NCBI GenBank assembly: GCA_900317125.1
Contig: ONFR01000001.1
Coordinates: 62,001 to 126,000, forward strand
Direction of reading: 5' to 3'
Source of the DNA: an uncultured Bacteroidales bacterium
Lineage (GTDB): Bacteria > Bacteroidota > Bacteroidia > Bacteroidales > P3
Length of the DNA: 64,000 nucleotides
In this document: piece by piece, positions 12,541 to 45,535 of the stretch
Layout: every line of letters begins with the position of its first letter
How positions within the stretch are numbered: position 1 is the first letter of the stretch
Notes under the pieces: generated by a model
Seen by the model: the letters and a program-made list of their open reading frames with translations, nothing else
Databases searched by the model: none
What the model was told of the DNA's origin: nothing
Position numbers and translations under genes: made by a program

Positions 12541-13620
12541 ATGAAACTAATTGCAGTAGGCGATATAATGCCGGGAGGGGTCCTCTCAATTACAAATACA
12601 GAGTATGCCACTAAAGAAGTAAGAGATTACTTGTCTTCGGGTGATTTACGAATAGGCAATTTCGAGTGTGCAGTTGAAGTCCCCAATCCTTCTGGAAAAA
12701 AAATAATGGGTGGAGGAAATACCATTTTTATAAGGGAACAAGATGCAAAACGTGTTAAAGATTTAGGGATAGATATTGTTAGTATTGCTAACAATCATTT
12801 GTTTGATTTAGGTCCTGAGGGTGCTTTTAAAGCCATAGAAGTTCTGGATTGTTTGGGCATTAAACACTGTGGTGCAGGTAGAAATCTTCAAGAAGCAAGA
12901 AGGCCGGTTGTTGTTAAAAAGGATGGTTGTACATATGCTTTTTTGGCATTTACTGACACGAGATGGAATTATATGTATGAAGCAACAGACACGGAACCGG
13001 GTGTTAATCCTTTACGTGAGGACTATGTAATACAAGAGATTAAAGCGGCAAAACAATTATATGATTATATCATAGTAATTCCTCACTGGGGAAAAGAAAA
13101 CACATATTTTCCGACACTTGAAGTGGAACCATTGGCAAAAAAAATGATTCATGCCGGAGCTTGTCTTGTTTTAGGAGGCCATTCTCATAGAATTCAACCT
13201 GTGATAAATATTTGTCATGGTTCAATAATATATAGTATGGGAAATTTTCTGTTTTCAAATAGAATCATTAACACTCCAAAATTTACATGGTATCCCCCAG
13301 AGCCAATAGATGTCGAAACTTTACCCAAAACTATTGGTATTCCATTAGTAGATACTCCAACAATTAAATTATGGCGTCCACTTGCATATATAGGAATGAT
13401 GGTTGAGAGTACTATTAATAGAAACACACATTCCAAATATAAGTTGACTTATACAGACATGAATAATTGTGTGGATTTATTGAAAGAGGGAGTGTTTTGT
13501 AAGCGATTAATCCTGGGTTTATTAGAATTTTCAATTAAGTTTGGAATATACAAAATTGTTTTTATTCTGTGTGAGTATTACAAGAGTGCAAAAGCACGCA
13601 TTTGTAGCAAAAAGCGATAA
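12541..13620 (+). CDS. CapA-like metallophosphoesterase
   Basis: A 359-residue protein of the PGA_cap/CapA family. Metal-binding blocks of the calcineurin-like fold are present: VGDIMPGG (residues 6-13), IGNFECAVE, IVSIANNHLFDLG with the Asn-His pair, VIPHWGKENTYFP, and LVLGGHSHRIQPV, followed by YSMGNFLFSN. The family is found with poly-gamma-glutamate and capsule synthesis and may hydrolyse phosphodiesters or help release or anchor polymer. No signal peptide is seen. A C-terminal hydrophobic stretch (LILGLLEFSIKFGIYKIVFILCEYY) may associate it with the membrane. Ten bases separate it from the cytidylyltransferase. Confidence 0.8.
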   Translation: MKLIAVGDIMPGGVLSITNTEYATKEVRDYLSSGDLRIGNFECAVEVPNPSGKKIMGGGNTIFIREQDAKRVKDLGIDIVSIANNHLFDLGPEGAFKAIEVLDCLGIKHCGAGRNLQEARRPVVVKKDGCTYAFLAFTDTRWNYMYEATDTEPGVNPLREDYVIQEIKAAKQLYDYIIVIPHWGKENTYFPTLEVEPLAKKMIHAGACLVLGGHSHRIQPVINICHGSIIYSMGNFLFSNRIINTPKFTWYPPEPIDVETLPKTIGIPLVDTPTIKLWRPLAYIGMMVESTINRNTHSKYKLTYTDMNNCVDLLKEGVFCKRLILGLLEFSIKFGIYKIVFILCEYYKSAKARICSKKR

Positions 13621-28663: not shown

Positions 28664-29632
28664 ATGGAGTATCGTTTTTTTCAATATGGTGTGGATGATG
28701 TATATATCAAAGAGATAGTTGATATGTTAGCCATATCACATCGCGAGGTGATAAAGTCGGAGAAGTGGTTTCGGTGGAGATTCGAGCAAAATCCATGCGG
28801 GGAAGCAATCGTGTCTTGTGCATTTGATTCTGGGCATTTGGTTGCATGTATTGCCATAGAGAAGGTGCCAGAGAAGATTAATGGGAATCAATGCATATTT
28901 GGGCTTGTTCGCTATTATTTTGTACGGGAGAGCTATGGTTTTGCAGAGATAATTACGAGGTTGATAGGGCAGGCAGAAGTTGAGGTACAGAGACAGCAAT
29001 TGACAGCTGTTTTAATATTGGGGCTGCTGGATTATTGTTCAGATGTGTCAATTGATGGTTGGAAGAAAGGTGATGTTAAAGTGAAGTATAGAGTGAAATT
29101 CATAGAACCACTACGTTCCATATTCAGACTGTCTGATGTAAAGAAAACACTTATACCCTGCAGGTACCCTTCTCTTGATGAGAAATCGGATGACAGGAAT
29201 AAATCATCATATATAAAGAGTTCTTTATTAAATCAGCCGGAATTAGAAAAGAAATGGGATACAGAATATTTGTGCTGGCGATTCCTTTCTACAGAAAATC
29301 CTGAATATGCATTTGTAAATGATCAGGATACTTTTGCCATTGCTGTTGTCGGAATCAGAGGAAAAGTGACAAAGGATGTTCAAATCTTAATGATGGCAAC
29401 AAAAAATGAAAAAGTTCTTTCAAATCATTGCAAAAAAAATGTTGCTGACAAACTGAATGAACTGTTTCATCCAGACACAATAAGTTGTGTGGACAATGAC
29501 CATTTTTTGATATTTGGGAATACAATTGGTGCTCTGCACACTATACCTGTTTGTTATAAATGGACAGAAGGAGCGGAAAGTCTAAACATAACCAATTTGG
29601 TACATACCGTGATAAAGTATAATCTCCAATAG
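28664..29632 (+). CDS. GNAT-like protein of unknown substrate
   Basis: A 322-residue protein that starts at ATG after a GAAGAGGG ribosome-binding stretch. The N-terminal part (KWFRWRFEQNPCGEAIVSCAFDSGHLVACIAI, about 34-66) resembles the entry block of the acyltransferase at 26.7 kb, and a second WDTEYLCWRFLSTENPEYAF repeat occurs in the C-terminal half. It may therefore be a double-GNAT or divergent acyltransferase. No convincing acetyl-CoA R-x-x-G-x-G/A loop is visible, so activity is uncertain. It stands alone between two gaps of 200-300 bases. Confidence 0.5.
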   Translation: MEYRFFQYGVDDVYIKEIVDMLAISHREVIKSEKWFRWRFEQNPCGEAIVSCAFDSGHLVACIAIEKVPEKINGNQCIFGLVRYYFVRESYGFAEIITRLIGQAEVEVQRQQLTAVLILGLLDYCSDVSIDGWKKGDVKVKYRVKFIEPLRSIFRLSDVKKTLIPCRYPSLDEKSDDRNKSSYIKSSLLNQPELEKKWDTEYLCWRFLSTENPEYAFVNDQDTFAIAVVGIRGKVTKDVQILMMATKNEKVLSNHCKKNVADKLNELFHPDTISCVDNDHFLIFGNTIGALHTIPVCYKWTEGAESLNITNLVHTVIKYNLQ

Positions 29633-29780: not shown

Positions 29781-29828
29781 TATTATTTTGACTAATTGTA
29801 CAAGTCTGATGAATTAATTTTGTGAATC

Positions 29829-29844
29829 ATCATGCAAGCATGAT
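29829..29844 (+). promoter_or_regulatory. dyad element ATCATGC-AA-GCATGAT, copy 2
   Basis: A perfect 7-bp inverted repeat with an AA centre, 20 bases before the likely ATG of the sugar-phosphate transferase. The flanking 30 bases match the block at about 28567-28596 with a few changes. The compensating difference between copies (GTATGAT there, GCATGAT here) keeps the stem. Confidence 0.42.
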
Positions 29845-29863
29845 ATATTTAAAAACAAATGTG

Positions 29864-30460
29864 ATGTATAAGTTTTTTTTTAAACGCCTATTAGATATAA
29901 CAATCTCAGGATTGGCTTTATTGGCTATTGGTTGGCTATTAGTTCTAATTGCAATATTCTTACATTTTGCAAACAAAGGTGCAGGCGCTTTCTTCTATCA
30001 AGAGCGTCCAGGAAAAGATGAAAAAATTTTCAAGGTTATTAAGTTTAAAAGTATGACTGACGAAAGAGATAAGGATGGAAATCTATTACCAGAAGAGCAA
30101 AGACTGACAAAAATAGGTGCATTTATTAGAAAGTTCTCTATAGATGAACTACCTCAATTAGTTAATGTGTTTAAAGGAGATATGGCATTCATTGGTCCGA
30201 GACCATTGCTCGTAAAATATTTACCTTTATACAGTAAAGAACAACACCGACGTCACGAAGTTAGGCCAGGAATGTCAGGATGGGCGCAGGTGAATGGCCG
30301 TAATAATATTACATGGACAGAAAAATTCAAGCTGGATGTGTGGTATGTTGATAATGTTACGTTATGGGTTGATATAAAAGTGATTTTTCTTACCATTAAG
30401 AATGTACTTGTATCAAAGGATATTGTATTAACCACAGGACCTTTTACTGGAGACAATTGA
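29864..30460 (+). CDS. initiating sugar-phosphate transferase (PF02397)
   Basis: A 198-residue monotopic phosphoglycosyl transferase of the WcaJ/PglC type. One N-terminal hydrophobic helix (about 11-33) is followed by FFYQERPGKDEKIFKVIKFKSM, SIDELPQLVNVFKGDMAFIGPRPLL (with the catalytic Asp-Glu) and RPGMSGWAQVNGRN. It transfers a sugar-1-phosphate to undecaprenyl phosphate and so starts each repeat unit. ATG 29864 gives the usual MYKxFFKRLLDI start; upstream ATGs at 29831 and 29840 fall in the dyad element. Codons 4-6 are a T9 run (29873-29881), which makes the N terminus slippage-prone. Confidence 0.9.
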   Translation: MYKFFFKRLLDITISGLALLAIGWLLVLIAIFLHFANKGAGAFFYQERPGKDEKIFKVIKFKSMTDERDKDGNLLPEEQRLTKIGAFIRKFSIDELPQLVNVFKGDMAFIGPRPLLVKYLPLYSKEQHRRHEVRPGMSGWAQVNGRNNITWTEKFKLDVWYVDNVTLWVDIKVIFLTIKNVLVSKDIVLTTGPFTGDN

Positions 30461-30461
30461 T

Positions 30462-31697
30462 ATGAAGAAAGTGATGATTCTAGCTGGGGGCAACGACCAG
30501 ATAGCTTTAATGGAGGAAATCCGCCGCTATTTTAAGAATGAGGTGGAAATTATATTGGTTGACATGTCTGAAAAAGTCCGTGCAATTCCGTATGCTGACA
30601 AGTTTTTGAAGATAAGTACAATGGACAAGGCTGCTGTGTTAAAAGCTGCACGTGAAGAAAAGATTGACTATATTCTGACAGCTTGCGGCGACCAACCTCT
30701 TTCGACTATGGCCTACGTGGCCACTGAGATGGGGCTGCCGACCTACCTTACAGAGCATGATGTACGTGATTTGACCAACAAGCGTTATATGAAAGAAAAA
30801 ATGGTGCAGGTGGGCATACCTACGGCCAAACACATTTATATTAATAAAACATGGGATGGGAAACTGCCCGATTGGGAATTCCCACTGGTCGTGAAACCAG
30901 TGGATAGCAACGGCTCAAAAGGAGTGAAGAAAGTATTTTCTCAAGCTGATTTGGAAAAATCTCTTAAAGAAGCGTTTCAATACTCACTTTCAGGCGATGT
31001 AATCATTGAAGAATTCAAGCAAGGCGAAGAACTTTCGGTAGACGTATATGTTGAAGGAACAACCGCCAAGCTACTTTCAATAACAGCATCCAAGAAGATT
31101 CAAGAAAATAAGGATTCTTTTACAATCATTCAGAGTTATTACCCAGCTCCTACGGATTATAAAGAAGAACAAGTTCTTGAAATCTGTCAGAAGATTGTTA
31201 ACGCATGGCATCTGCACGATACTCCGCTTTTAGTACAGTTAATCCAAAATGAAGATAGCTATAATGTGCTTGAGTTCAGTGCACGAATGGGTGGAGGTTC
31301 AAAATATCGATTGATTCAAGTGTTGTCTGGAGTTGATATTATGAAGGTGTATGTAGAAATGGTGATGGGACAAAAACCCAAAGTGGAACCCCAAAAACAA
31401 TATAACAACGCTATTATGAGCTATGTTTATTGTTATCCAGGTATTTATGAGTCAATAGTTGGTTTGGAAGAACTCAAAGAAAAAGGAATAATACTTGATT
31501 ATTTTATATATAGAGGGTCGAATTCTGCAATTGAAAAATCTAATACTAGCAGTGATCGTGTCGCTGGATTCTTAGTGGTAGGAGCCTCGAAGGATGAAGT
31601 AGAAAATAAACTAGAAGAAGCTAATGCTACTTTATGTGTGTTGAACGATAAGGGTGAGGATATAATGCGTCACGATTTGTTTCAAAGGACGTTTTAG
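30462..31697 (+). CDS. ATP-grasp ligase (third general type)
   Basis: A 411-residue ATP-grasp protein with a Rossmann-like N terminus (VMILAGGNDQIALMEEIRRYF), FPLVVKPVDSNGSKGVKKV (about 143-161, ATP lysine and glycine loop), IIEEFKQGEELSVDVYV, and VLEFSARMGGGSKYRLIQ with the metal-binding Glu and Arg. It starts one base after the sugar-phosphate transferase and 15 bases before an opine-type dehydrogenase. It could ligate the amino acid or opine made by the next two genes to a sugar carboxylate or amine. This is inference from context. Confidence 0.87.
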   Translation: MKKVMILAGGNDQIALMEEIRRYFKNEVEIILVDMSEKVRAIPYADKFLKISTMDKAAVLKAAREEKIDYILTACGDQPLSTMAYVATEMGLPTYLTEHDVRDLTNKRYMKEKMVQVGIPTAKHIYINKTWDGKLPDWEFPLVVKPVDSNGSKGVKKVFSQADLEKSLKEAFQYSLSGDVIIEEFKQGEELSVDVYVEGTTAKLLSITASKKIQENKDSFTIIQSYYPAPTDYKEEQVLEICQKIVNAWHLHDTPLLVQLIQNEDSYNVLEFSARMGGGSKYRLIQVLSGVDIMKVYVEMVMGQKPKVEPQKQYNNAIMSYVYCYPGIYESIVGLEELKEKGIILDYFIYRGSNSAIEKSNTSSDRVAGFLVVGASKDEVENKLEEANATLCVLNDKGEDIMRHDLFQRTF

Positions 31698-31712
31698 CAC
31701 ATAAAAAGATAT

Positions 31713-32789
31713 ATGAAAATCGCAGTAATAGGTGCTGGTAATGGCGGGCAAGCCATTGCTGGTTATTTGGCAATGCAAAACTACAAAGTGGCTTTGTATG
31801 ACATTGATGAATGCAAAATCAACGAGCTGAAACAATTTGGGGGGATTCGTTTGGAAGGTTGCATAAATGGTTTTGGTAGGTTAAACCGCATCACTACTGA
31901 TATTGCAGAAACGTTACAGGATGCAGAAATTGTTATGGTTACCACCATTGCTAACGCCCACAAAACTGTTGCACAAAGCATAGCCCCTTATGTTGTAGAT
32001 GGTCAAGTTATTATACTTAATCCTGGTCGTACTTGTGGTGCTTTAGTCTTCAAGCAGGCGCTGGTAGAGGCTGGCTGCACAGCCCGCTTTTATTTGGCCG
32101 AAGCCCAAACTTTGGTGTACGCTTGTCGTATTGTGCAAAATGGCACAGTGAACATCATTGGAGTTAAGGATGAGGTACTGCTTTCTGCGTTGCCGTCACA
32201 TGATACAGACCATGTTCTACGTAAAATTAATCCGCTGTACCCAAGCTTTACGAAGACTACGAATGTGCTCCGTACTTCATTGGAAAACATCGGTGCAATG
32301 TTTCATCCTTGTGTATTACTGTTTAATGCTGCCACTATTGAGCGCAATGAAGTATTTTGGTTTTATCGAGACATGACAGAGCAGGTTGCTTCGTTTATTG
32401 AGCGTTTTGATGCTGAGCGTCTTGCTGTTGGCAGAGCGTATGGGTTAGATTTGTTAGGAGTGAAAGAATGGATAAAGTTTGCCTACAAGGACACGGTTGG
32501 TGAAACCTTGTGCGAGCGAATGCGTAATAATCCTGCTTATCACGATATCAAGTCGCCATCATCTATTTTTACTCGTCAGCTGACCGAAGACATTCCAACA
32601 GGGGTGTTACCTATTATGGAATTAGGTCGTGTAGCGGGTGTGAAAACACCGCTAATGGAATCAATGATACATATTTGTGAAGCTTTATTGTGTCAAGATC
32701 TTCGTTCTAACGGCCGTAATCTGAAGAACTTGGGGCTGGTGGGAAAGAACAAACAGGAAATTTTGAACTATATCACTCATGAAGCTTAA
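31713..32789 (+). CDS. octopine/nopaline-type dehydrogenase
   Basis: A 358-residue NAD(P)-dependent dehydrogenase. The Rossmann motif IAVIGAGNGGQAIAGYLA begins at residue 3. IVMVTTIANAHKTVAQSIAPYV and VIILNPGRTCGALVFKQAL are typical of the octopine dehydrogenase N-terminal domain. The catalytic-domain block LRTSLENIGAMFHPCVLLFNAATIE carries the His expected from the family (N-x2-x-H-P). The reaction would be reductive condensation of an amino acid with a 2-keto acid to give an N-(carboxyalkyl) amino acid. Its last 11 bases overlap the B12-mutase gene, so the products are likely used together. Confidence 0.85.
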   Translation: MKIAVIGAGNGGQAIAGYLAMQNYKVALYDIDECKINELKQFGGIRLEGCINGFGRLNRITTDIAETLQDAEIVMVTTIANAHKTVAQSIAPYVVDGQVIILNPGRTCGALVFKQALVEAGCTARFYLAEAQTLVYACRIVQNGTVNIIGVKDEVLLSALPSHDTDHVLRKINPLYPSFTKTTNVLRTSLENIGAMFHPCVLLFNAATIERNEVFWFYRDMTEQVASFIERFDAERLAVGRAYGLDLLGVKEWIKFAYKDTVGETLCERMRNNPAYHDIKSPSSIFTRQLTEDIPTGVLPIMELGRVAGVKTPLMESMIHICEALLCQDLRSNGRNLKNLGLVGKNKQEILNYITHEA

Positions 32790-34638
32790 TATAAAAGATG
32801 TTTTTGGCCTAATAAAACCCTTAGTGGATGTTCACACTATGGGTGTCTATACAATGGCCAATCTGCTTCGTGACTGTGGCTACAAGGTATGTGTCTCGAA
32901 AGACGACATCAACGAGGCAGTGGAGCAAATTCATAAAATTAACAACTACAGTTTGGTGAAACGGTGGATTGTTGAGAACAAGATTACCCGTCTTGGCTTC
33001 AGCTATCGCCTCGACCCCCATGAGGGTTGTGACTATTTCATGAGCTTGTATGCTCACTTGAAAGGCGACAACATGTTTGAGGAAGATGGTGGGCAGCTTA
33101 CCCAGATTTTCTTTGCAGGGCTGCCTGATACTTGTGACATGGTGCGAGGTAAAACCAATGGAGAAGTGCTTGTGTTTCCGGGCAACGAAAGCCCCATTGA
33201 GTCACTGTCTATGTTGAAAGTGCCGGAATATCTGATGCCTCAGGCGTTGAACCAGAATAATCCATATGATGATATGCGCTGGAACTTTGCCAAGAAGCTT
33301 ATTGAGTCGGAAATGTTCAAAATGGAGCCTCCGCAAGACCATTATGGCTATGCCAACTGCGGCACAGATTCCGACAGCTATTTAGAACGACTCAAATATG
33401 CCAAAAGCAAACATGCCTTGCCAATTATCCGTACTCATTCTGGGCCGTATAATCCCAATCGCTTGGAGGCTCTTAAGGAATACAACTCATGGTGTCATGA
33501 CTTGGCACAATGCCAATTATTGGATGTGCTTTCAATAGGTAGTTCACAACTTACGCAATCGAACTTTGGAGAGGATTGGGAAGGAAAACCCAACGGTGGC
33601 GGTGTGCCAGTGAATTCAGAGATTGAGTATCGAACGATTAAAGAAGAAGCGAGTCCGATGCTGGTGCGTACATATTCGGGCACAAAGAATGTTCCTGATT
33701 TAGCCAAGATTCACGAACGTTCATTGAATATATCATGGCACGCCCTTTCGTTTTGGTGGTTTGACGAGCTAGATGGTCGTGGCCACAACAGCCTTTTGGA
33801 CAACTTAAAAGAACATTTCGAGGCTGTACGTTGGATTGCTACTACTGGTAAGCCAGTAGAACCAAATGTGCCTCATCATTTTGCTTTCCGTGGTGCTGAT
33901 GATATTACTTATATCATTTCTGGTTATTTAGCAGCAAAGGCTTGCAAGAAGATGGGAATAAAGCACTTGATACTTCAGAACATGCTCAACACCCCCAAGT
34001 ACACTACGGGTGTGCAGGATTTGGCAAAGGGTAGAACCATGCTCAAACTTGTCCGTGAGTTGGAAGACGACACATTTCATGTTAGTCTACAAACTCGTGC
34101 TGGATTGGACTATTTTTCTCCCGATTTGGAGGAGGCGAAGATTCAGTTGGCGGCCGTTACCTGTTTGATGGATGATTTGGAGCCAGAAAACGACAACAGC
34201 CCTGAAATTATCCATGTAGTGAACTACAGTGAAGCGGTTCGTTTGGCCACGCCACCCATCATCAAAGACAGCATTCGTATCACCCTCAATGCCCTTCATG
34301 AGTACCGTACCGCCCGAGCCTTTGGTAAGGTTCCGAACATGAAATATGACAATGATGTAAAGGAGAGGGAAGAGGCGTTATACGCCGAAGTCAAGGAATC
34401 CATCCTCATGTTGGAAAGAGCAGTACCGAATCTTTACACTCCAGAAGGGTTCTACAAAGTTTTTGTAGAGGGATTCTTGCCTGTACCCTACTTGATGGAT
34501 CAGCAACACAAGTTCCCGAAGGCTACAATGTGGCATACGGCCATCAAGAACGGTGGTATCAGGGTTGTTGATGATGAGGGTAAGATTATATATACAACTG
34601 ATAGATATAGAAAAATCATTTCGCAAATGGTGGGATAA
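32779..34638 (+). CDS. B12-dependent mutase, glutamate-mutase-like single chain
   Basis: A 619-residue protein. The N terminus contains D17-V-H19-T-M-G22, the cobalamin-binding DxHxxG motif in which His replaces the lower ligand, followed by a Rossmann-like segment (TMANLLRDCGYKV, ITRLGFSYRLDP with the S-x-L element, IFFAGLPD). The remaining 450 or so residues look like the catalytic barrel of the methylaspartate-mutase epsilon type (THSGPYNPNR, SWHALSFWWFDELDGRGHNSL, VPHHFAFRGADDITYIISGYLAAKACKKMG, NMLNTPKYTTG). In known glutamate mutases the B12 domain and barrel are separate chains, so this is a fusion. It would rearrange a carbon skeleton, for example glutamate to 3-methylaspartate. Substrate is not established. 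Confidence 0.72.
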   Translation: MKLNIKDVFGLIKPLVDVHTMGVYTMANLLRDCGYKVCVSKDDINEAVEQIHKINNYSLVKRWIVENKITRLGFSYRLDPHEGCDYFMSLYAHLKGDNMFEEDGGQLTQIFFAGLPDTCDMVRGKTNGEVLVFPGNESPIESLSMLKVPEYLMPQALNQNNPYDDMRWNFAKKLIESEMFKMEPPQDHYGYANCGTDSDSYLERLKYAKSKHALPIIRTHSGPYNPNRLEALKEYNSWCHDLAQCQLLDVLSIGSSQLTQSNFGEDWEGKPNGGGVPVNSEIEYRTIKEEASPMLVRTYSGTKNVPDLAKIHERSLNISWHALSFWWFDELDGRGHNSLLDNLKEHFEAVRWIATTGKPVEPNVPHHFAFRGADDITYIISGYLAAKACKKMGIKHLILQNMLNTPKYTTGVQDLAKGRTMLKLVRELEDDTFHVSLQTRAGLDYFSPDLEEAKIQLAAVTCLMDDLEPENDNSPEIIHVVNYSEAVRLATPPIIKDSIRITLNALHEYRTARAFGKVPNMKYDNDVKEREEALYAEVKESILMLERAVPNLYTPEGFYKVFVEGFLPVPYLMDQQHKFPKATMWHTAIKNGGIRVVDDEGKIIYTTDRYRKIISQMVG

Positions 34639-36176: not shown

Positions 36177-37331
36177 ATGTTCAAGAATAATGGGAAATTA
36201 AAGCTATTAATCATCGTGGGAACTCGGCCGGAGATTATCCGGCTGGCGGCGGTGATTAATAAAAGCCGTACGTATTTCGACTGCCTGTTGGCACATACTG
36301 GGCAGAATTATGATTATAACTTGAATGGGGTTTTCTTTAAGGATCTGAAACTGGCTGATCCCGATGTATATTTGGATGCCGTGGGCGGCGACCTTGGAGA
36401 AACGATGGGCAATATCATCGCCAAAAGCTATCAGTTGATGGTTGAGGTGCAACCCGATGCAGTGTTGGTGCTAGGCGATACTAATTCATGTCTCAGCGTT
36501 ATTGGTGCAAAACGTTTGCATATTCCTATCTTCCATATGGAGGCAGGAAATCGCTGTAAGGACGAGTGCCTGCCCGAAGAGACAAACCGACGTATCGTGG
36601 ATATTATCAGCGATGTGAATATGGCCTATTCAGAGCATGCGCGTCGCTATCTGGCCGACTGTGGTTTGCCGAAGGAACGTACCTATGTCACGGGTAGCCC
36701 GATGGCTGAGGTGCTGCATCAGAACCTGGCCGAAATTGAAGCCTCGGACATTCATCAGCGACTGGGGCTGCAGAAAGGCCATTATATACTTCTTTCTGCT
36801 CACCGAGAGGAGAATATTGATACGGAGAAGAATTTCCTCTCACTCTTTACTGCAATTAATAAGATGGCAGAGAAGTACGATATGCCTATCTTGTACAGTT
36901 GCCATCCACGGAGTCGCAAGCGGTTGGAAGCTTCGGGGTTTATGTTGGACTCTCGTGTAATTCAGCATGAGCCACTTGGTTTCCATGACTACAATTGCCT
37001 TCAGATGAATGCCTACGCTGTAGTTTCGGATAGTGGGACCCTGCCTGAAGAGTCGTCGTTCTTCACAAGTGTTGGTCATCCGTTCCCGGCTGTTTGTATT
37101 CGTACCAGTACGGAACGTCCGGAGGCTTTGGATAAGGGCTGTTTCTTTATAGCTGGTATTGACGAAAAGTCTTTGCTGCAGGCTGTGGACTGTGCGGTGG
37201 AGATGAATAACAATCATGATGATGGAATACCCGTGCCGGATTATGTGGACGAAAACGTCAGTACTAAGGTTGTCAAGATTATTCAGAGCTATGTGGGGGT
37301 GGTGAATAAGATGGTCTGGCGAAAATTTTAA
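36177..37331 (+). CDS. capG: UDP-GlcNAc 2-epimerase family, CapG-like
   Basis: A 384-residue non-hydrolysing UDP-HexNAc 2-epimerase. Evidence is IIVGTRPEIIRLAAVINKS (residues 11-29), LLAHTGQNYDYNLNGVFFKDL, VLGDTNSCLSVIGAKRLHIPIFHMEAGNRCKDECLPEETNRRIVD, LLSAHREENI and SDSGTLPEESSFF. The capsular branch (CapG) acts as the last enzyme of UDP-L-FucNAc synthesis, and that reading fits the presence of CapE and CapF here. Plain WecB (UDP-ManNAc) is the alternative. Codon usage and base composition are less AT-rich than in the 17-23 kb block. Confidence 0.87.
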   Translation: MFKNNGKLKLLIIVGTRPEIIRLAAVINKSRTYFDCLLAHTGQNYDYNLNGVFFKDLKLADPDVYLDAVGGDLGETMGNIIAKSYQLMVEVQPDAVLVLGDTNSCLSVIGAKRLHIPIFHMEAGNRCKDECLPEETNRRIVDIISDVNMAYSEHARRYLADCGLPKERTYVTGSPMAEVLHQNLAEIEASDIHQRLGLQKGHYILLSAHREENIDTEKNFLSLFTAINKMAEKYDMPILYSCHPRSRKRLEASGFMLDSRVIQHEPLGFHDYNCLQMNAYAVVSDSGTLPEESSFFTSVGHPFPAVCIRTSTERPEALDKGCFFIAGIDEKSLLQAVDCAVEMNNNHDDGIPVPDYVDENVSTKVVKIIQSYVGVVNKMVWRKF

Positions 37332-37891: not shown

Positions 37892-39118
37892 ATGAAAATA
37901 TTAGTTACGGGAGCGAAGGGGTTTGTTGGGAAGAACCTTTGTGCTCAACTTAATAACATTAAGGAGGGAAAGGATAAGACCCATCCGGGGTTGTCTATGG
38001 AGGCTGTTTATGAATATGACATTGATAACACGATAGATGAACTTGATGGGTTTTGCAGGGATTGCGATTTTGTGTTTAATCTAGCTGGGGTAAATAGGCC
38101 GCAGAACCAAGAGGAGTTCATGCAAGGGAATTTCGGCTTTGCCAGTACCTTGTTGGATACGTTGAGGAAGCATGGTAATCGCTGTCCTGTAATGCTTAGT
38201 AGTTCGCAACAGGCATCTTTGACCGGTCGTTTCGGTAATAGTGAGTATGGACGTAGCAAGAAGGCTGGTGAGGAGTTGTTTTTTGAATATAGCAAGGAGA
38301 CTGGTGCCAGTGTGATGGTATATCGTTTCCCGAATCTTTTTGGTAAATGGTGTCGGCCTAATTATAATAGTGCTGTTGCGACATTCTGCAATGCTGTTGC
38401 GAATGATTTGCCTTATACGGTGAATGACCCATCTGTGGAGTTGGAATTGCTCTATATTGATGATTTGGTAGATGAGATGATGGCTTGTTTGGAGGGGCGG
38501 GAACATCATTGTGAATTTGACGGGTTGAATGTTGTGGGGGTCTCGCAGAAATCGCTGAATTCGCAGAAATTGGGAAGGTATTGCTGTTGTCCAATTACGC
38601 ATAAGGTTACATTGGGTGCTATTGTACAGTTGCTGCAACAATTTGCTGAGCAGCCGAAGACACTCACGATTCCAGAGATTCCTGAGGGGTCGTTTGCCAA
38701 GAAGTTGTACTCCACGTATCTCTCGTATTTACCGAAAGAGAAAGTGGCATTTCCGTTGAAAATGAATGTTGATGCTCGAGGTTCATTCACGGAGTTGGTA
38801 CATACACTCAATTGCGGACAGGTTTCCATTAATATTAGTAAGCCTGGGATTACCAAAGGACAGCATTGGCACAATACGAAATGGGAGTTTTTCATTGTTG
38901 TTGCGGGACACGGATTGATTCAGGAGAGAAAAATTGACTCAGATGAGGTATTGGAATTCGAGGTGTCGGGTGACAATATTCAGTGCGTTCATATGTTGCC
39001 AGGATATACTCATAATATAATTAATTTGAGTGAGACGGAGAATCTTGTTACAGTAATGTACTGTAATGAAATATTCAATCCGGATAAACCGGATACATAT
39101 TTCCTTCCAGTACAGTAA
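37892..39118 (+). CDS. capF: CapF-like bifunctional reductase/epimerase
   Basis: A 408-residue protein with two parts. Residues 1-280 are an SDR domain: ILVTGAKGFVGKNLCAQL, FNLAGVNRPQNQEEF, LSSSQQASLTGRFGNSEYGRSKKAGEELFFEY with Tyr-x3-Lys, and RFPNLFGKWCRPNYNS. Residues from about 295 form a cupin (NVDARGSFTELVHT, GITKGQHWHNTKWEFFIVVAG with metal-binding histidines, LPGYTHNIINLSET). CapF reduces the keto sugar made by CapE and sets C5/C3 stereochemistry on the way to UDP-L-FucNAc. It is longer than typical CapF (about 370). Residues near 217-230 (VSQKSLNSQKL) correspond to DNA resembling the nearby CGCAGA repeat, an apparent in-frame insertion. Confidence 0.88.
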   Translation: MKILVTGAKGFVGKNLCAQLNNIKEGKDKTHPGLSMEAVYEYDIDNTIDELDGFCRDCDFVFNLAGVNRPQNQEEFMQGNFGFASTLLDTLRKHGNRCPVMLSSSQQASLTGRFGNSEYGRSKKAGEELFFEYSKETGASVMVYRFPNLFGKWCRPNYNSAVATFCNAVANDLPYTVNDPSVELELLYIDDLVDEMMACLEGREHHCEFDGLNVVGVSQKSLNSQKLGRYCCCPITHKVTLGAIVQLLQQFAEQPKTLTIPEIPEGSFAKKLYSTYLSYLPKEKVAFPLKMNVDARGSFTELVHTLNCGQVSINISKPGITKGQHWHNTKWEFFIVVAGHGLIQERKIDSDEVLEFEVSGDNIQCVHMLPGYTHNIINLSETENLVTVMYCNEIFNPDKPDTYFLPVQ

Positions 39119-39328: not shown

Positions 39329-40390
39329 ATGGCAAAAGAGGTAGACGTATTATTTAAGCTGATCAGACTATCATTTGGCAAGGAGAGAGATTCCTCTTTG
39401 CCTAATGATGTTAATTGGGAAGAGGTATACGACATGTCGTTAAAGCAAGGTGTGGGTGCTATTGCATGTGACGGGATTTTGGCATCGAAAGAATGTTGTA
39501 TAGATGAGGATTTGCGTTTTAAGTGGATGGGTCAGAGTATGGTGATAGAACAGAAGTATCTTCATCATAAAAATGTACTTGCAGAATTGGCAAAGATGTT
39601 CCAGCAACAGGGTATACAAATGATGTTGCTGAAGGGTTATGGGTTATCTTTGAATTATCCTGTTCCCGAGCACAGGCCATCTGGAGATATCGATATATAC
39701 TTATTTGGAGACAAGTCGAAAACTGATGAATTTGTAGAGAAAGAATTGGGAATAAATGTAAAAACAAGTTACGAAAAACATTCGTCGTTTATATATAAAG
39801 GTGTTACTATTGAAAATCATGGTACATTCTTTGATATATATTCCCACCCTTCAAATGAATATGTAAATGATTATATTTGTGAGTTGATAGAAGGAAGAAC
39901 GGAAGAGGTTACGATAGGCGATTCATGTTTTGTGATACCAAACCCCACCTTGATGGCAATTCATTTGTTGAGACACACAGCATGTGATTTTGCTGCCAAT
40001 TCCATTTCATTAAGACAAGTATTGGATTGGGCATTACTGGTTGCGAACCGAGGTGCAGAGATGGACTTGCAGGTCATTAATACTTTTGTCGAAAAATCTG
40101 GGATGTCTCAGTTCTTTCAACTGATTAATGCATTCTGTGAAGAAAGATTTGGTCTTGATAGTTCATTGTTTTCGTTGACAGTGGACGTACCTATTGATTG
40201 TGGTCGCTTCGTTAAAGATATTTATTTAGGGAAGAGGGTGTCGGATTTTCCGTCACCATCGAAGAAGTTGTCGTATGGCATTAGAAAATCTCTGCAATTC
40301 TGGCAGAATCGTTGGAAATATAAAATGGTATATTCAGATAGTTTATTGAGTTTATATTTTACTATTGCAAAAAATAGACTTATCCATTAG
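39329..40390 (+). CDS. nucleotidyltransferase-fold protein (PF14907-like)
   Basis: A 353-residue protein with MMLLKGYGLSLNYPVPEHRPSGDIDIYLF at about 102-130. The L-K-G ... R-x-x-G-D-I-D-I-Y pattern matches the 'uncharacterised nucleotidyltransferase' family that lies in lasso-peptide, O-antigen and capsule loci. The D-x-D pair would bind metal. The flanking parts are mostly helical (LRHTACDFAANSISLRQVLDWALL). It is a paralogue of the gene at 41.8 kb; the aminotransferase lies between them. Substrate is unknown. Confidence 0.75.
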   Translation: MAKEVDVLFKLIRLSFGKERDSSLPNDVNWEEVYDMSLKQGVGAIACDGILASKECCIDEDLRFKWMGQSMVIEQKYLHHKNVLAELAKMFQQQGIQMMLLKGYGLSLNYPVPEHRPSGDIDIYLFGDKSKTDEFVEKELGINVKTSYEKHSSFIYKGVTIENHGTFFDIYSHPSNEYVNDYICELIEGRTEEVTIGDSCFVIPNPTLMAIHLLRHTACDFAANSISLRQVLDWALLVANRGAEMDLQVINTFVEKSGMSQFFQLINAFCEERFGLDSSLFSLTVDVPIDCGRFVKDIYLGKRVSDFPSPSKKLSYGIRKSLQFWQNRWKYKMVYSDSLLSLYFTIAKNRLIH

Positions 40391-40414: not shown

Positions 40415-41668
40415 ATGTCTGAGCGTAAAAGAATTTATTTATGCCTTGCCCATATGAGTGAGGCTGGTTTGGAACAGAAGTATATTAAGGAGGCTTTTGA
40501 CACCAATTGGGTTGTACCTCTGGGACCCAATGTAAACGGCTTTGAGGCAGATTTGGAAACATTTGTAGGTGAAGATAAGAAGGTGGTGGCTCTTTCGTCA
40601 GGAACAGCAGCTGTCCATTTAGCACTTATTGCCTGTGGGGTGAAGCCTGGTGATGAGGTAATCGTGCAGAGTTTTACCTTTTGTGCATCGTCACATCCTA
40701 TTACATATTTGGGTGCTACGCCGGTGTTTGTGGATTCTGAGAGGGATACCTGGAATATGGATCCTGAACTGATGGAGCAGGCAATTATAGACCGTAAAGC
40801 TAAGACAGGCAAGTATCCTAAGGCTATTATCCCGGTGGCATTGTATGGTATGCCGTATAAAATTGAGGCAATTATGTCAATTGCTAACAAATATGGCATT
40901 CCTGTGATAGAGGATGCTGCTGAGGGTTTTGGCTCTCGTTTCGATGGACGTGTACTCGGCACCTTTGGTGAATTTGGCATTTTGTCGTTTAATGGCAATA
41001 AGATGATTACCACCAGTGGGGGAGGTGCATTGATTTGCCCAGATAAAGAGTCTGCTGACAAGATAATGTGGTATGCCACCCAGGCTCGCGAGGCATATCC
41101 CTATTATCAACATGAGGCGATTGGCTACAACTATCGCATGAGCAATATATGCGCTGGTATTGGACGTGGACAGATGACAGTGGTTGATGACCACTTGCGT
41201 CATCACAGGCATGTGCAAAAGATGTATGAGGAGCTGCTCGCAGGTGTTGATGGCATTTCGATGATGAAGGCACCATCTGAGAAATATGACGCCAACTATT
41301 GGCTCTGCACAATGTGTATAGACCCCGAACTCCGTATCAAAGGACAGGAGAACGCCTATAAGAAGGTAATCACAGGCGCAGTTGGAGGTGCTGCAGGAGT
41401 TATCCATGCTGTCGATTCAGCCACGACGGATTGTCAGCCAAATGACAATGTGGAGGCATTGCGCATGTTTATGGATTCTGCTCAAGTTGAAGCCCGACCA
41501 TTGTGGAAACCGATGCACAAGCAACCGGTGTACAAGAACAATCCGGCCTATGTAAACGGTGTCAGTGAGTCGTTTTTTAAGGTGGGTATGTGTCTGCCTG
41601 CTGGTCCCTATGTTTCAGACGAAGAGGTGCGGTATATTGTTAAATGCATCAAAGAATCTATTGAATGA
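40415..41668 (+). CDS. DegT/DnrJ/EryC1 PLP aminotransferase
   Basis: A 417-residue PLP-dependent sugar aminotransferase. It has VVPLGPNVNGFEADLETFV near the N terminus, LSSGTAAVHLALIACGVKPGDEVIVQSFTF, IPVIEDAAEGFGSRFDG with the PLP-pyridine Asp, and FGILSFNGNKMITTSGGGAL with the catalytic Lys (about 190). GYNYRMSNICAGIGRGQM is the usual follow-up. It transaminates a 3- or 4-keto nucleotide sugar. The closest readable type is that of bacillosamine/perosamine-like enzymes (WecE/PglE group). Intact, unlike the fragment at the left edge. Confidence 0.88.
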   Translation: MSERKRIYLCLAHMSEAGLEQKYIKEAFDTNWVVPLGPNVNGFEADLETFVGEDKKVVALSSGTAAVHLALIACGVKPGDEVIVQSFTFCASSHPITYLGATPVFVDSERDTWNMDPELMEQAIIDRKAKTGKYPKAIIPVALYGMPYKIEAIMSIANKYGIPVIEDAAEGFGSRFDGRVLGTFGEFGILSFNGNKMITTSGGGALICPDKESADKIMWYATQAREAYPYYQHEAIGYNYRMSNICAGIGRGQMTVVDDHLRHHRHVQKMYEELLAGVDGISMMKAPSEKYDANYWLCTMCIDPELRIKGQENAYKKVITGAVGGAAGVIHAVDSATTDCQPNDNVEALRMFMDSAQVEARPLWKPMHKQPVYKNNPAYVNGVSESFFKVGMCLPAGPYVSDEEVRYIVKCIKESIE

Positions 41669-41761: not shown

Positions 41762-42841
41762 ATGAATCAGACTGAGGTTATATTAGAGTTTTTAAGGGCA
41801 GGTGTGTTGGACAGGTCTCCCAATATTCAACATATAGAAAGTATAGACTGGGAAAGACTTTTGGTACAATCGGGCAAGCAAGGGGTGATAGGATGGGTGT
41901 GGGACGGTATTTGTAAATTGCCAATAAGCCAACAACCGCCTAGGCAACAGCGAATTAACTGGGGCCTTTCCGCACAGGAGATATGGAGTAATTACCAGAA
42001 ACACTGTGAGGTCTTAAAAACAATGATTACTTTATGTAATGAAAATAATATACGACTATTATTACTTAAAGGGATTGGCTTGTCAAAACTATACCCAAAG
42101 CCGCAATCTCGTCCTTGTGGTGATATTGATATTTATTTATTTGATGACTATTACAAAGGGAATAAGGTGTTTACAGGTCATGATGTTGAGAGGATAGACA
42201 AACATGCAACATTTGTTTTTAATAACGTGTTGGTTGAAAATCATTATTATTTTCTTGAACCCAATACTCATCAGATGAGGTCGATTAACAGGTACCTAGA
42301 ATCCACTTTGAACGATGTGTGTCTAACCGAGGGAGGATATTATACTTTTTCTTCAATTGCAGATTTTGTTTTTCTTACCATGCATACACTAAAGCATTTT
42401 AGAGAAACAAAGATGGTTCAATATAGAAATGTTATGGATTTTGGAATGTTCCTTTATCATAATATGGGAAAACTTCAACCCTCGTTATGCTTTGATGTTC
42501 TGTCTAGATTTAATTTAGTTAAGGGTTGTGAAATGTTGATCTATTTGTCGGAAAAGATTTTAGGTATAGATTTGAAAGAATACCACTTTCATCAAATCCC
42601 CATAGATGATGTTGAGCAAATAAGAGATGCTTATTTGTTTGAAAATGAAGATATAGAGGTGGGAGAGGGCGGGTTTAATCTAAAAAAACAATATCGCTGT
42701 GTTTGGCGTTATGTTCCAAGATATTTAAGCTATTATATGATTATCAAAGCAAAGTTGTCATTGATAATCAGAATTATGTTTCGAATACCGGCTTCCATGT
42801 CAATTGCTTCTTGGTTCTATCAGCAAGTTATTCATAAATAA
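41762..42841 (+). CDS. nucleotidyltransferase-fold protein, second PF14907-like copy
   Basis: A 359-residue protein with IRLLLLKGIGLSKLYPKPQSRPCGDIDIYLFDD (about 96-128), the same L-K-G ... R-x-x-G-D-I-D-I-Y block as the gene at 39.3 kb. Overall similarity to that gene appears moderate (shared layout, different flanks), so they are diverged paralogues rather than a recent duplication. The region VFLTMHTLKHFRETKMVQYRNVMDFGMFL matches the paralogue's helical part. It begins 93 bases after the aminotransferase. The spacer shows no clear signal. Confidence 0.75.
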   Translation: MNQTEVILEFLRAGVLDRSPNIQHIESIDWERLLVQSGKQGVIGWVWDGICKLPISQQPPRQQRINWGLSAQEIWSNYQKHCEVLKTMITLCNENNIRLLLLKGIGLSKLYPKPQSRPCGDIDIYLFDDYYKGNKVFTGHDVERIDKHATFVFNNVLVENHYYFLEPNTHQMRSINRYLESTLNDVCLTEGGYYTFSSIADFVFLTMHTLKHFRETKMVQYRNVMDFGMFLYHNMGKLQPSLCFDVLSRFNLVKGCEMLIYLSEKILGIDLKEYHFHQIPIDDVEQIRDAYLFENEDIEVGEGGFNLKKQYRCVWRYVPRYLSYYMIIKAKLSLIIRIMFRIPASMSIASWFYQQVIHK

Positions 42842-44223: not shown

Positions 44224-44254
44224 TTGTGTGGTTTGCTAAAAAGTCGTATCTTTG
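44224..44254 (+). promoter_or_regulatory. transposase promoter
   Basis: A -7 box TATCTTTG at 44247-44254, with TTG at 44224-44226 nineteen or twenty bases upstream, matches the Bacteroidetes promoter consensus. It lies 21 bases before the transposase ATG. Confidence 0.65.
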
Positions 44255-44275
44255 CATCGAAAAACTTGCAAAACG

Positions 44276-45535
44276 ATGTACACAAAACCCGCACCCCGAA
44301 CCAACCAGCAGTCGCTGTTCTTCGACCTGGAGTCGCAGCTGAACCAGAAGCATCCGTTATACCTGTTGGCCAACAAGATAGACTGGAATGTCTTTGAAGA
44401 GGCCTTCAAGGGTCTATACTGCGCCAACAATGGACGGCCAGCCAAGCCGATTCGTCGAATGGTGGGGCTGCTGATACTGAAACACGTGCGCAACGTGTCG
44501 GACGAGAGTGTCGTGGAGCAGTGGCAGGAGAACATCTACTACCAGTACTTCTGCGGGGAGCAGTCGATACAGACGAGTGCCCCGTGCACCCCGACCGAGC
44601 TCGTGGAGTTCCGGAAGCGAATCGGGGAGGAAGGCGTGGAGCTGATACTGAAAGAGAGCATCCGGGTGAACGACGACCATGACGACATCGACAAGGCATT
44701 CATCGACTCAACCGTGCAGGAGAAGAACATCACCTTCCCGACAGATGCCAAGCTGACCAAGAAGATCATCAGCCGCTGCCTGAAGATAAACGCAAAGCTG
44801 GGGCTTCCGCTGCGACAGAGCTACAAGTGGGAGATGAAGAGGCTGTCCCGCGACCAGCGATTTCGCAACCACCCGAAGAACAGAAAGAAGGCACAGAAGG
44901 CGGACCGCAGGATGAAGACCATCGCGGGGAGGCTGGTGAGGGAGCTGGAGCGCAACCTTTTGAAGGAGGGTCTTCTGGGCGAGTTTGCCGAAGAGATAGC
45001 TCTTTACTACAAGGTGCTTTCCCAGAAGAAGGACGACAAGGACAAGACATACTCGCTGCACGAGCCCGAAGTGGAGTGCATCAGCAAGGGCAAGGAGCAC
45101 AAGAAGTACGAATTCGGGAACAAGGTCTCCATAGTGCGTACATGGGGCGGACTGATTATCGGGGCACTGTCCTTCCGCAACGAGTACGACGGGCACACGA
45201 TAGACAGGACGTTTGAGCAGGTGGAGAGGCTTGCCGAGCAGAGGCCGAAACTGCTTGCCAGCGACAGGGGCTACAGAGGGCAGAAACAGTCGGGCACCAC
45301 CAAGATAATGATACCCGATGTGCCAAAGGATGGCGACACCTACTACAAGAAACAGAAGAAGCACAAGCTATTCTGCAAACGGGCGGGCATAGAGCCTATA
45401 ACCGGACATCTCAAAGCAGACCACCGTCTCTGTCGCAACTTCTATGCCGGAGTCTTCGGCGACAACATCAACGTGATGCTCGCGGCTGCGGGATTCAACT
45501 TCAAGAGAGCCATGAGGATTCTCTGTGCCATTTAG
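44276..45535 (+). CDS. IS5/IS1182-family DDE transposase
   Basis: A 419-residue transposase. An N-terminal DUF772-like DNA-binding part (VFEEAFKGLYCANNGRPAKPIRRMVGLLILKHVRNVSDE) is followed by a catalytic core with candidate D in KAFIDSTVQEKN, D in LLASDRGYRGQ and E in GIEPITGHLKADHRL. A basic, helical insert (KNRKKAQKADRRMKTIAGR) lies between the first two acidic residues. ATG 44276 is used because the promoter box overlaps the earlier in-frame start. The frame is intact with no obvious lesion, so the element may still be mobile. Confidence 0.88.
   Translation: MYTKPAPRTNQQSLFFDLESQLNQKHPLYLLANKIDWNVFEEAFKGLYCANNGRPAKPIRRMVGLLILKHVRNVSDESVVEQWQENIYYQYFCGEQSIQTSAPCTPTELVEFRKRIGEEGVELILKESIRVNDDHDDIDKAFIDSTVQEKNITFPTDAKLTKKIISRCLKINAKLGLPLRQSYKWEMKRLSRDQRFRNHPKNRKKAQKADRRMKTIAGRLVRELERNLLKEGLLGEFAEEIALYYKVLSQKKDDKDKTYSLHEPEVECISKGKEHKKYEFGNKVSIVRTWGGLIIGALSFRNEYDGHTIDRTFEQVERLAEQRPKLLASDRGYRGQKQSGTTKIMIPDVPKDGDTYYKKQKKHKLFCKRAGIEPITGHLKADHRLCRNFYAGVFGDNINVMLAAAGFNFKRAMRILCAI

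Follow-up and report, generated by a model that had tools for sequence, protein, structure and literature searches.

The window, i.e., the whole stretch of 64,000 nucleotides of rumen Bacteroidales DNA analyzed here, harbors a capsule cluster in which genes for an ATP-grasp ligase, an opine dehydrogenase (ODH) and a predicted single-chain cobalamin-dependent mutase (MUT) follow directly on that of an initiating sugar-phosphate transferase. The open reading frames of ligase, ODH and 619-residue protein lie where an earlier sequence-only reading had placed them, and the tight spacing it described was reproduced, with one base between the end of the transferase gene (30460) and the start of the ATP-grasp gene (30462) in the ORF list and an 11-nt overlap of the MUT frame with the ODH frame. 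The main genes are as follows (window coordinates, strand):

29822..30460, +, initiating sugar-phosphate (phosphoglycosyl) transferase, Bac_transf PF02397 (Pfam E 1.8e-59)
30462..31697, +, ATP-grasp carboxylate-amine ligase of the PylC / D-Ala-D-Ala ligase / L-amino-acid-ligase type, 411 aa
31713..32789, +, ODH, PF02317, similar to N-(1-D-carboxyethyl)-L-norvaline dehydrogenase (CENDH), 358 aa
32779..34638, +, MUT, predicted single-chain cobalamin-dependent mutase, 619 aa
34660..35709, +, FnlA-type UDP-GlcNAc 4,6-dehydratase/5-epimerase homologue (PF02719; TIGR04130 at 504 bits, below the curated cut-off of 730)
36177..37331, +, WecB/FnlC-like UDP-GlcNAc 2-epimerase (ORF judged by its sequence; homologues in related capsule loci)
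37892..39118, +, CapF/FnlB-like reductase (PF14667 and PF01370)
40415..41668, +, DegT/DnrJ/EryC1/StrS sugar aminotransferase (PF01041, 2.9e-91)

The features read earlier in the ATP-grasp–ODH–MUT cassette are not due to chance. The same cluster also contains a PGA_cap gene (PF09587, CapA-like; 12541–13620) and two NTP_transf_5-like nucleotidyltransferase genes that flank the aminotransferase gene (39329–40390 and 41762–42841, the latter identified from its sequence only). A transposase gene (DUF772; 44252–45535) lies downstream of the cluster, and the 322-residue protein encoded just before the initiating transferase (28664–29632) gave no Pfam or NCBIfam match. The window's own genome contains two methylmalonyl-CoA mutase genes and a cobalamin adenosyltransferase gene and is, as far as these genes go, therefore able to supply adenosylcobalamin (AdoCbl).

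The ATP-grasp ligase and the opine dehydrogenase

The capsule or O-antigen setting proposed earlier, with an ATP-grasp ligase beside the initiating transferase, is supported by the Bac_transf match and by the ligase profiles, namely PF13535, which identifies an ATP-grasp domain above its cut-off (5e-13; 49.3 bits versus 27), PF07478 (3e-11), PylC-like_N and LAL_C2; the PDB matches are 4dim and 3vot. In rumen and gut Bacteroidales the ODH–MUT pair belongs to polysaccharide clusters; directly upstream there is usually an ATP-grasp gene and often an initiating transferase gene, and these two genes adjoin each other in many related capsule loci as well. ATP-grasp homologues occur in 20 of the loci read, the clusters being of glycan type as far as they are annotated, and 16 related loci have a gene for a sugar aminotransferase of the DegT family no more than 7 kb from MUT. 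Two loci (L007 and L020) harbor a distant ligase instead (22–23% identity), while their ODH and MUT stay 83–91% identical, and such exchange of the ligase around a constant pair is what one would expect of a single product joined to various acceptors. Most ODH–MUT loci outside capsule clusters lack ATP-grasp. A related arrangement is that of Neisseria PglB2, a phosphoglycosyl transferase fused to an ATP-grasp domain that acylates an amino sugar; in the window, by contrast, transferase and ATP-grasp are separate genes, and the acid would be the ODH–MUT product, not glycerate.

ODH comprises an Octopine_DH helical domain (PF02317, E 1.7e-40) and an NAD-binding domain, the latter with N-terminal Rossmann matches in Pfam. 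Its closest solved relative is CENDH (1bg6; E 1.1e-70), with homology over the full length and a conserved His/Asp pair. The earlier designation of the protein as an octopine-type dehydrogenase thus holds as to an opine dehydrogenase, but the enzyme is closer to bacterial CENDH than to the invertebrate octopine dehydrogenase. Three codons mark its conserved residues:

32028..32030, +, Arg106 in the NPGRT motif (Ala in CENDH), invariant in 60/60 MUT-linked ODHs
32304..32306, +, catalytic His198 (CENDH His202), invariant in 60/60
32589..32591, +, Asp293 (CENDH Asp297), invariant in 60/60

Arg106, which replaces Ala111 of CENDH, was considered as a mark of partnership with MUT and rejected, because the nearest ODHs unlinked to MUT carry it too; it is therefore a signature of the ODH subfamily. 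Two ODH genes stand in tandem before one MUT gene in two loci (L010, 5838–7995, and L018). Three Bacteroidales glycan loci (L234–L236) have ODH beside a Wzx-type flippase and without MUT, one of them (L236) also with a TupA-like ATP-grasp gene and another (L235) with a pyruvyl transferase gene.

Cobalamin domain and barrel of MUT

Taken alone, the MUT of the window gave no useful match among Pfam or NCBIfam profiles or PDB sequences, and family, structure and profile–profile routes were therefore taken. The resulting features are:

32779..33228, +, N-terminal cobalamin-binding Rossmann domain, residues 1–150 (model and fold match)
32827..32844, +, DVHTMG, D17–G22, motif of the lower-ligand His19
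33001..33012, +, S75-Y-R-L78, position of the SxL motif (S 87%, R77 100%)
33361..34614, +, glutamate-mutase-epsilon-like barrel, residues 195–612 (6h9e_B, hhalign)

The B12 motif that had been read in the N terminus is indeed at residues 17–22, and MUT has the DxHxxG...SxL...GG pattern of a cobalamin Rossmann domain with a lower-ligand His. In the 60-member MUT alignment H19, G22, R77, F112 and G114 are invariant (60/60) and S75 is kept in 87% of the relatives; the capsule clade retains Asp at position 17, where Clostridia mostly have Cys. Folded alone, the N-domain yields an AlphaFold model of pLDDT 91.8, for which the best structural match is 4r3u_C (Z 14.4, rmsd 2.1, 124 residues aligned), and nearly all of the best 50 matches are cobalamin domains. 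The B12-binding profile PF02310 matches 17 of 22 family members, and a clostridial member (L243) exceeds its cut-off (43.7 versus 32.1 bits), so that the profile search suggested by the sequence-only reading succeeds for the relatives but not for the window's MUT itself. The same is true of the Met_asp_mut_E profile (PF06368), whose cut-off is exceeded by two distant members (G549 and G502).

The model of the whole protein has a pLDDT of 85.6, and its C-domain matches best the epsilon subunit of glutamate mutase (GlmE; 6h9e_B, Z 28.4, rmsd 3.1, 371 residues aligned, 16% identity). Next come lysine 5,6-aminomutase (Z 25.8) and ornithine 4,5-aminomutase (Z 24.3), which share the barrel fold and a cobalamin domain with MUT but score below GlmE; these two enzymes use PLP. 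An hhalign comparison of the MUT family with 14 GlmE sequences (E 4.5e-7, 354 columns) agrees with the fold and the PF06368 matches in identifying a GlmE-type TIM barrel. Models and hhalign thus bear out the earlier proposal of a B12 domain and a glutamate-mutase-epsilon-like barrel in one chain, and MUT is predicted to function as a single-chain cobalamin mutase. Glutamate mutase (GlmS and GlmE; 1cb7, 6h9e) resembles it in the epsilon-type barrel, in the DxHxxG cobalamin domain and, as regards the MUT relatives, in having a MutL partner; MUT differs in uniting both parts in one chain, B12 domain first, in the replacement of the arginine claw and in its low identity (about 16%). MutL, which reactivates AdoCbl mutases, forms a fusion with MUT in one locus (L093) and is encoded directly upstream of it in the same operon in another (L243; PF13941, 560 bits).

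In an alignment at 16–20% identity, where shifts by one residue are possible, GlmE E330 aligns with MUT E485 and E171 with D332, both MUT residues being invariant, and GlmE R66, R100 and R149 align with the invariant H220, Q260 and Y299, near which lie the invariant arginines R218, R297 and R334. R66, R100 and R149 are the glutamate-binding arginines of GlmE, and the numbering used, that of the L098 sequence, agrees with that of C. cochlearium. MUT therefore departs from glutamate mutase (EC 5.4.99.1) both in the substrate arginines, as judged from this low-identity alignment, and in forming one 619-aa chain rather than separate S and E subunits. From these comparisons, MUT probably works like an enzyme of the glutamate-mutase class, while glutamate itself, which had been suggested as substrate, is doubtful because the three binding-arginine positions hold H220, Q260 and Y299. 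In two loci (L059, 8966–10869, and L060, 5007–6818) MUT is split over two reading frames, reflecting a pseudogene or an assembly error.

Near-obligate pairing of ODH and MUT

The pairing of ODH and MUT is near-obligate. Among 299 Bacillota genomes MUT is present in 61, about a fifth of those sampled, all 61 of which have a PF02317 ODH, as against 27 of the 238 genomes lacking MUT (Fisher 1e-42), and the identity matrices of the two proteins are correlated (Mantel r 0.84, 0/2000 permutations), all of these statistics being inflated by kinship among the genomes. Sixty of the 62 Bacillota MUT genes lie within 2.5 kb of ODH on the same strand, and in 55 loci read gene by gene, using mechanical ORF calls, ODH precedes MUT in 53 and the frames overlap in 48. 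Spread by mobile elements was considered and found no support, since searches of plasmids, phages and viral contigs, at the sensitivity applied, detected no MUT.

The pair is not specific to capsules, being widespread in Clostridia as a stand-alone operon, often under a c-di-AMP riboswitch, and the use in glycans therefore appears to be one particular application of a broader ODH–MUT module. Of the 61 MUT-bearing Bacillota genomes, 27 have this riboswitch (RF00379) ahead of ODH in sense orientation, e.g., upstream of the operons of L063 (7333–7466), L064, L065, L069, L073, L078 and L068 (two in tandem), and likewise in sense in 20 of the loci L152–L192. Among 16 control regions (up to 2 kb upstream of PF02317 genes not adjoining MUT) it was found once, at L206, where the ODH belongs to a MUT-bearing genome (G768) in which the two genes stand apart; the difference has a nominal Fisher p of 0.0035 that ignores phylogeny. 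No c-di-AMP riboswitch was seen in the window, and no cobalamin riboswitch near the ODH–MUT pair among the loci scanned in the window and its relatives. A lone cobalamin riboswitch (L203, 1665–1843, +) is located in a control region (G774) near a MUT-unlinked ODH, on the opposite strand to it, and an OLE RNA (RF01071; L187, 1369–2001, +, G562) lies close to an ODH–MUT operon and its c-di-AMP riboswitch.

One operon with all its genes on a single strand (L243) runs c-di-AMP riboswitch, ODH, D-Ala-D-Ala-ligase homologue, thioesterase, MutL, MUT, and an AsnB-like amide synthetase is encoded downstream of the pair in L030–L032, L063 and L095. The AsnB-like proteins right after MUT in two of these loci (L031, 9373–10728; L032, 4964–6304) start with MAGI and have a shortened glutaminase domain with Ala in place of the catalytic Cys2, features that recall amide synthases of the beta-lactam-synthetase type. 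A suspected NRPS neighbor in L033 was rejected, being an SprB/PKD surface protein.

Zhang et al. predicted in 2009 a 'novel B12-dependent protein family', encoded next to pfam02317 in 11 bacteria, and reported no function for it (PMC2667541); the operon is also noted in the H. orenii genome paper (PMC2626281). By description rather than by sequence, MUT resembles that family, which, in the 2009 account, has a B12-binding N-terminus, is always beside an octopine/nopaline dehydrogenase and in several organisms has a D-Ala:D-Ala ligase or asparagine synthase nearby; the MUT genes paired with ODH in Bacillota (60/62) and the copy overlapping ODH in the window correspond to it. The Bacteroidales capsule clade, the GlmE fold, the MutL link, the exchangeable ATP-grasp and the c-di-AMP riboswitch are absent from that account as far as it was accessible (PMC2667541). 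In the literature searched, which mostly excludes subscription papers, we found neither a link of the c-di-AMP riboswitch to octopine dehydrogenase or of opine dehydrogenase to glutamate mutase, nor the glutamate-mutase fold, the MutL link or the capsule deployment of this family.

Proposed pathway and competing readings

We favor, at slightly better than even confidence, a pathway in which ODH and MUT together yield a rearranged N-carboxyalkyl amino acid, which the ATP-grasp ligase would couple to the glycan. Given the computed domain identities, conserved catalytic residues, near-obligate pairing and capsule context, we infer that ODH and MUT would be consecutive enzymes of one short pathway. 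ODH would condense an amino acid reductively with an alpha-keto acid, at the expense of NAD(P)H, to a secondary-amine dicarboxylate (an opine), or may alternatively act on the product of MUT, and MUT would bind AdoCbl via His19, generate the 5'-deoxyadenosyl radical over the glutamate-mutase-type barrel and isomerize the carbon skeleton of an amino acid or of the opine. As to direction, the earlier idea of a branched amino acid feeding the opine is indistinguishable from opine formation followed by rearrangement. By analogy, the ATP-grasp ligase may activate a carboxylate of the ODH–MUT product to form an amide with an amino group of a glycan precursor, the acceptor probably being an amino sugar that would come from the DegT aminotransferase and be loaded by the neighboring phosphoglycosyl transferase.

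The operonic (L243) or fused (L093) MutL and the invariance of MUT E485/D332 and of ODH H198/D293 support the pathway, and attachment of its product by a variable ligase is the best reading because of the ligase swaps, the capsule context, the aminotransferases and the flippase-linked ODHs. Against this reading stand the ATP-grasp missing from most non-capsule pairs and the window's lack of a riboswitch; moreover, capsule loci are mosaic, so that neighbors need not share a pathway, and certain ODHs of this subfamily are found where MUT is absent, so that ODH need not depend on it. An alternative that we consider fairly improbable holds that, in the window as everywhere else, the pair yields an osmotically controlled compatible solute or metabolite of the cell envelope and that its placement in the capsule cluster is incidental. 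The riboswitch enrichment, the downstream AsnB-like synthetases and the operon noted in the halophile H. orenii (PMC2626281) are consistent with such a product, whereas the rumen Bacteroidales pairs lie inside polysaccharide clusters, mostly beside an initiating transferase and/or ATP-grasp gene, and the window has no c-di-AMP riboswitch.

That MUT is a true glutamate mutase, forming (2S,3S)-3-methylaspartate which ODH would N-alkylate with a keto acid, is unlikely: GlmE is the closest fold, and D332 and E485 coincide with its E171 and E330, yet the three carboxylate-binding arginine positions are invariantly His, Gln and Tyr, with R218/R297/R334 nearby instead. We give still less weight to a catabolic module, in which MUT would rearrange an imported opine-like compound and ODH would cleave it by oxidation; it is suggested by two divergent loci only (L093 and L094), where a MUT–MutL fusion and ODH adjoin an ABC transporter of the peptide type that has an SBP_bac_5 binding protein, while the settings with capsule genes, AsnB or a ligase are biosynthetic. 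That MUT is a corrinoid methyl carrier or a B12 sensor and not a mutase is hardly credible, since, despite the similarity of the N-domains of MUT relatives to methyltransferase corrinoid proteins (MtgC) as well, the C-domain is a full GlmE-type barrel and MutL, operonic with or fused to MUT relatives, serves AdoCbl mutases.

Beyond the favored coupling of an ODH–MUT product to the glycan, we propose tentatively, and with less than even confidence, that MUT is a new AdoCbl mutase, either rearranging the opine or supplying a branched amino acid for it, and that the metabolite formed by the two enzymes is made under c-di-AMP (osmotic or envelope-related) control in Clostridia and was recruited for capsule decoration in gut Bacteroidales via exchangeable ATP-grasp ligases. 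To our knowledge, only a small number of AdoCbl mutases rearrange carbon skeletons, and any new substrate for such an enzyme is notable. The cassette points to an uncharacterized pathway for an unusual rearranged amino acid, and the c-di-AMP riboswitch and the capsule ligases provide two concrete, testable leads on a family of the kind predicted without a function in 2009. If the proposal is true, B12 supply would directly shape the surface glycans of gut bacteria.
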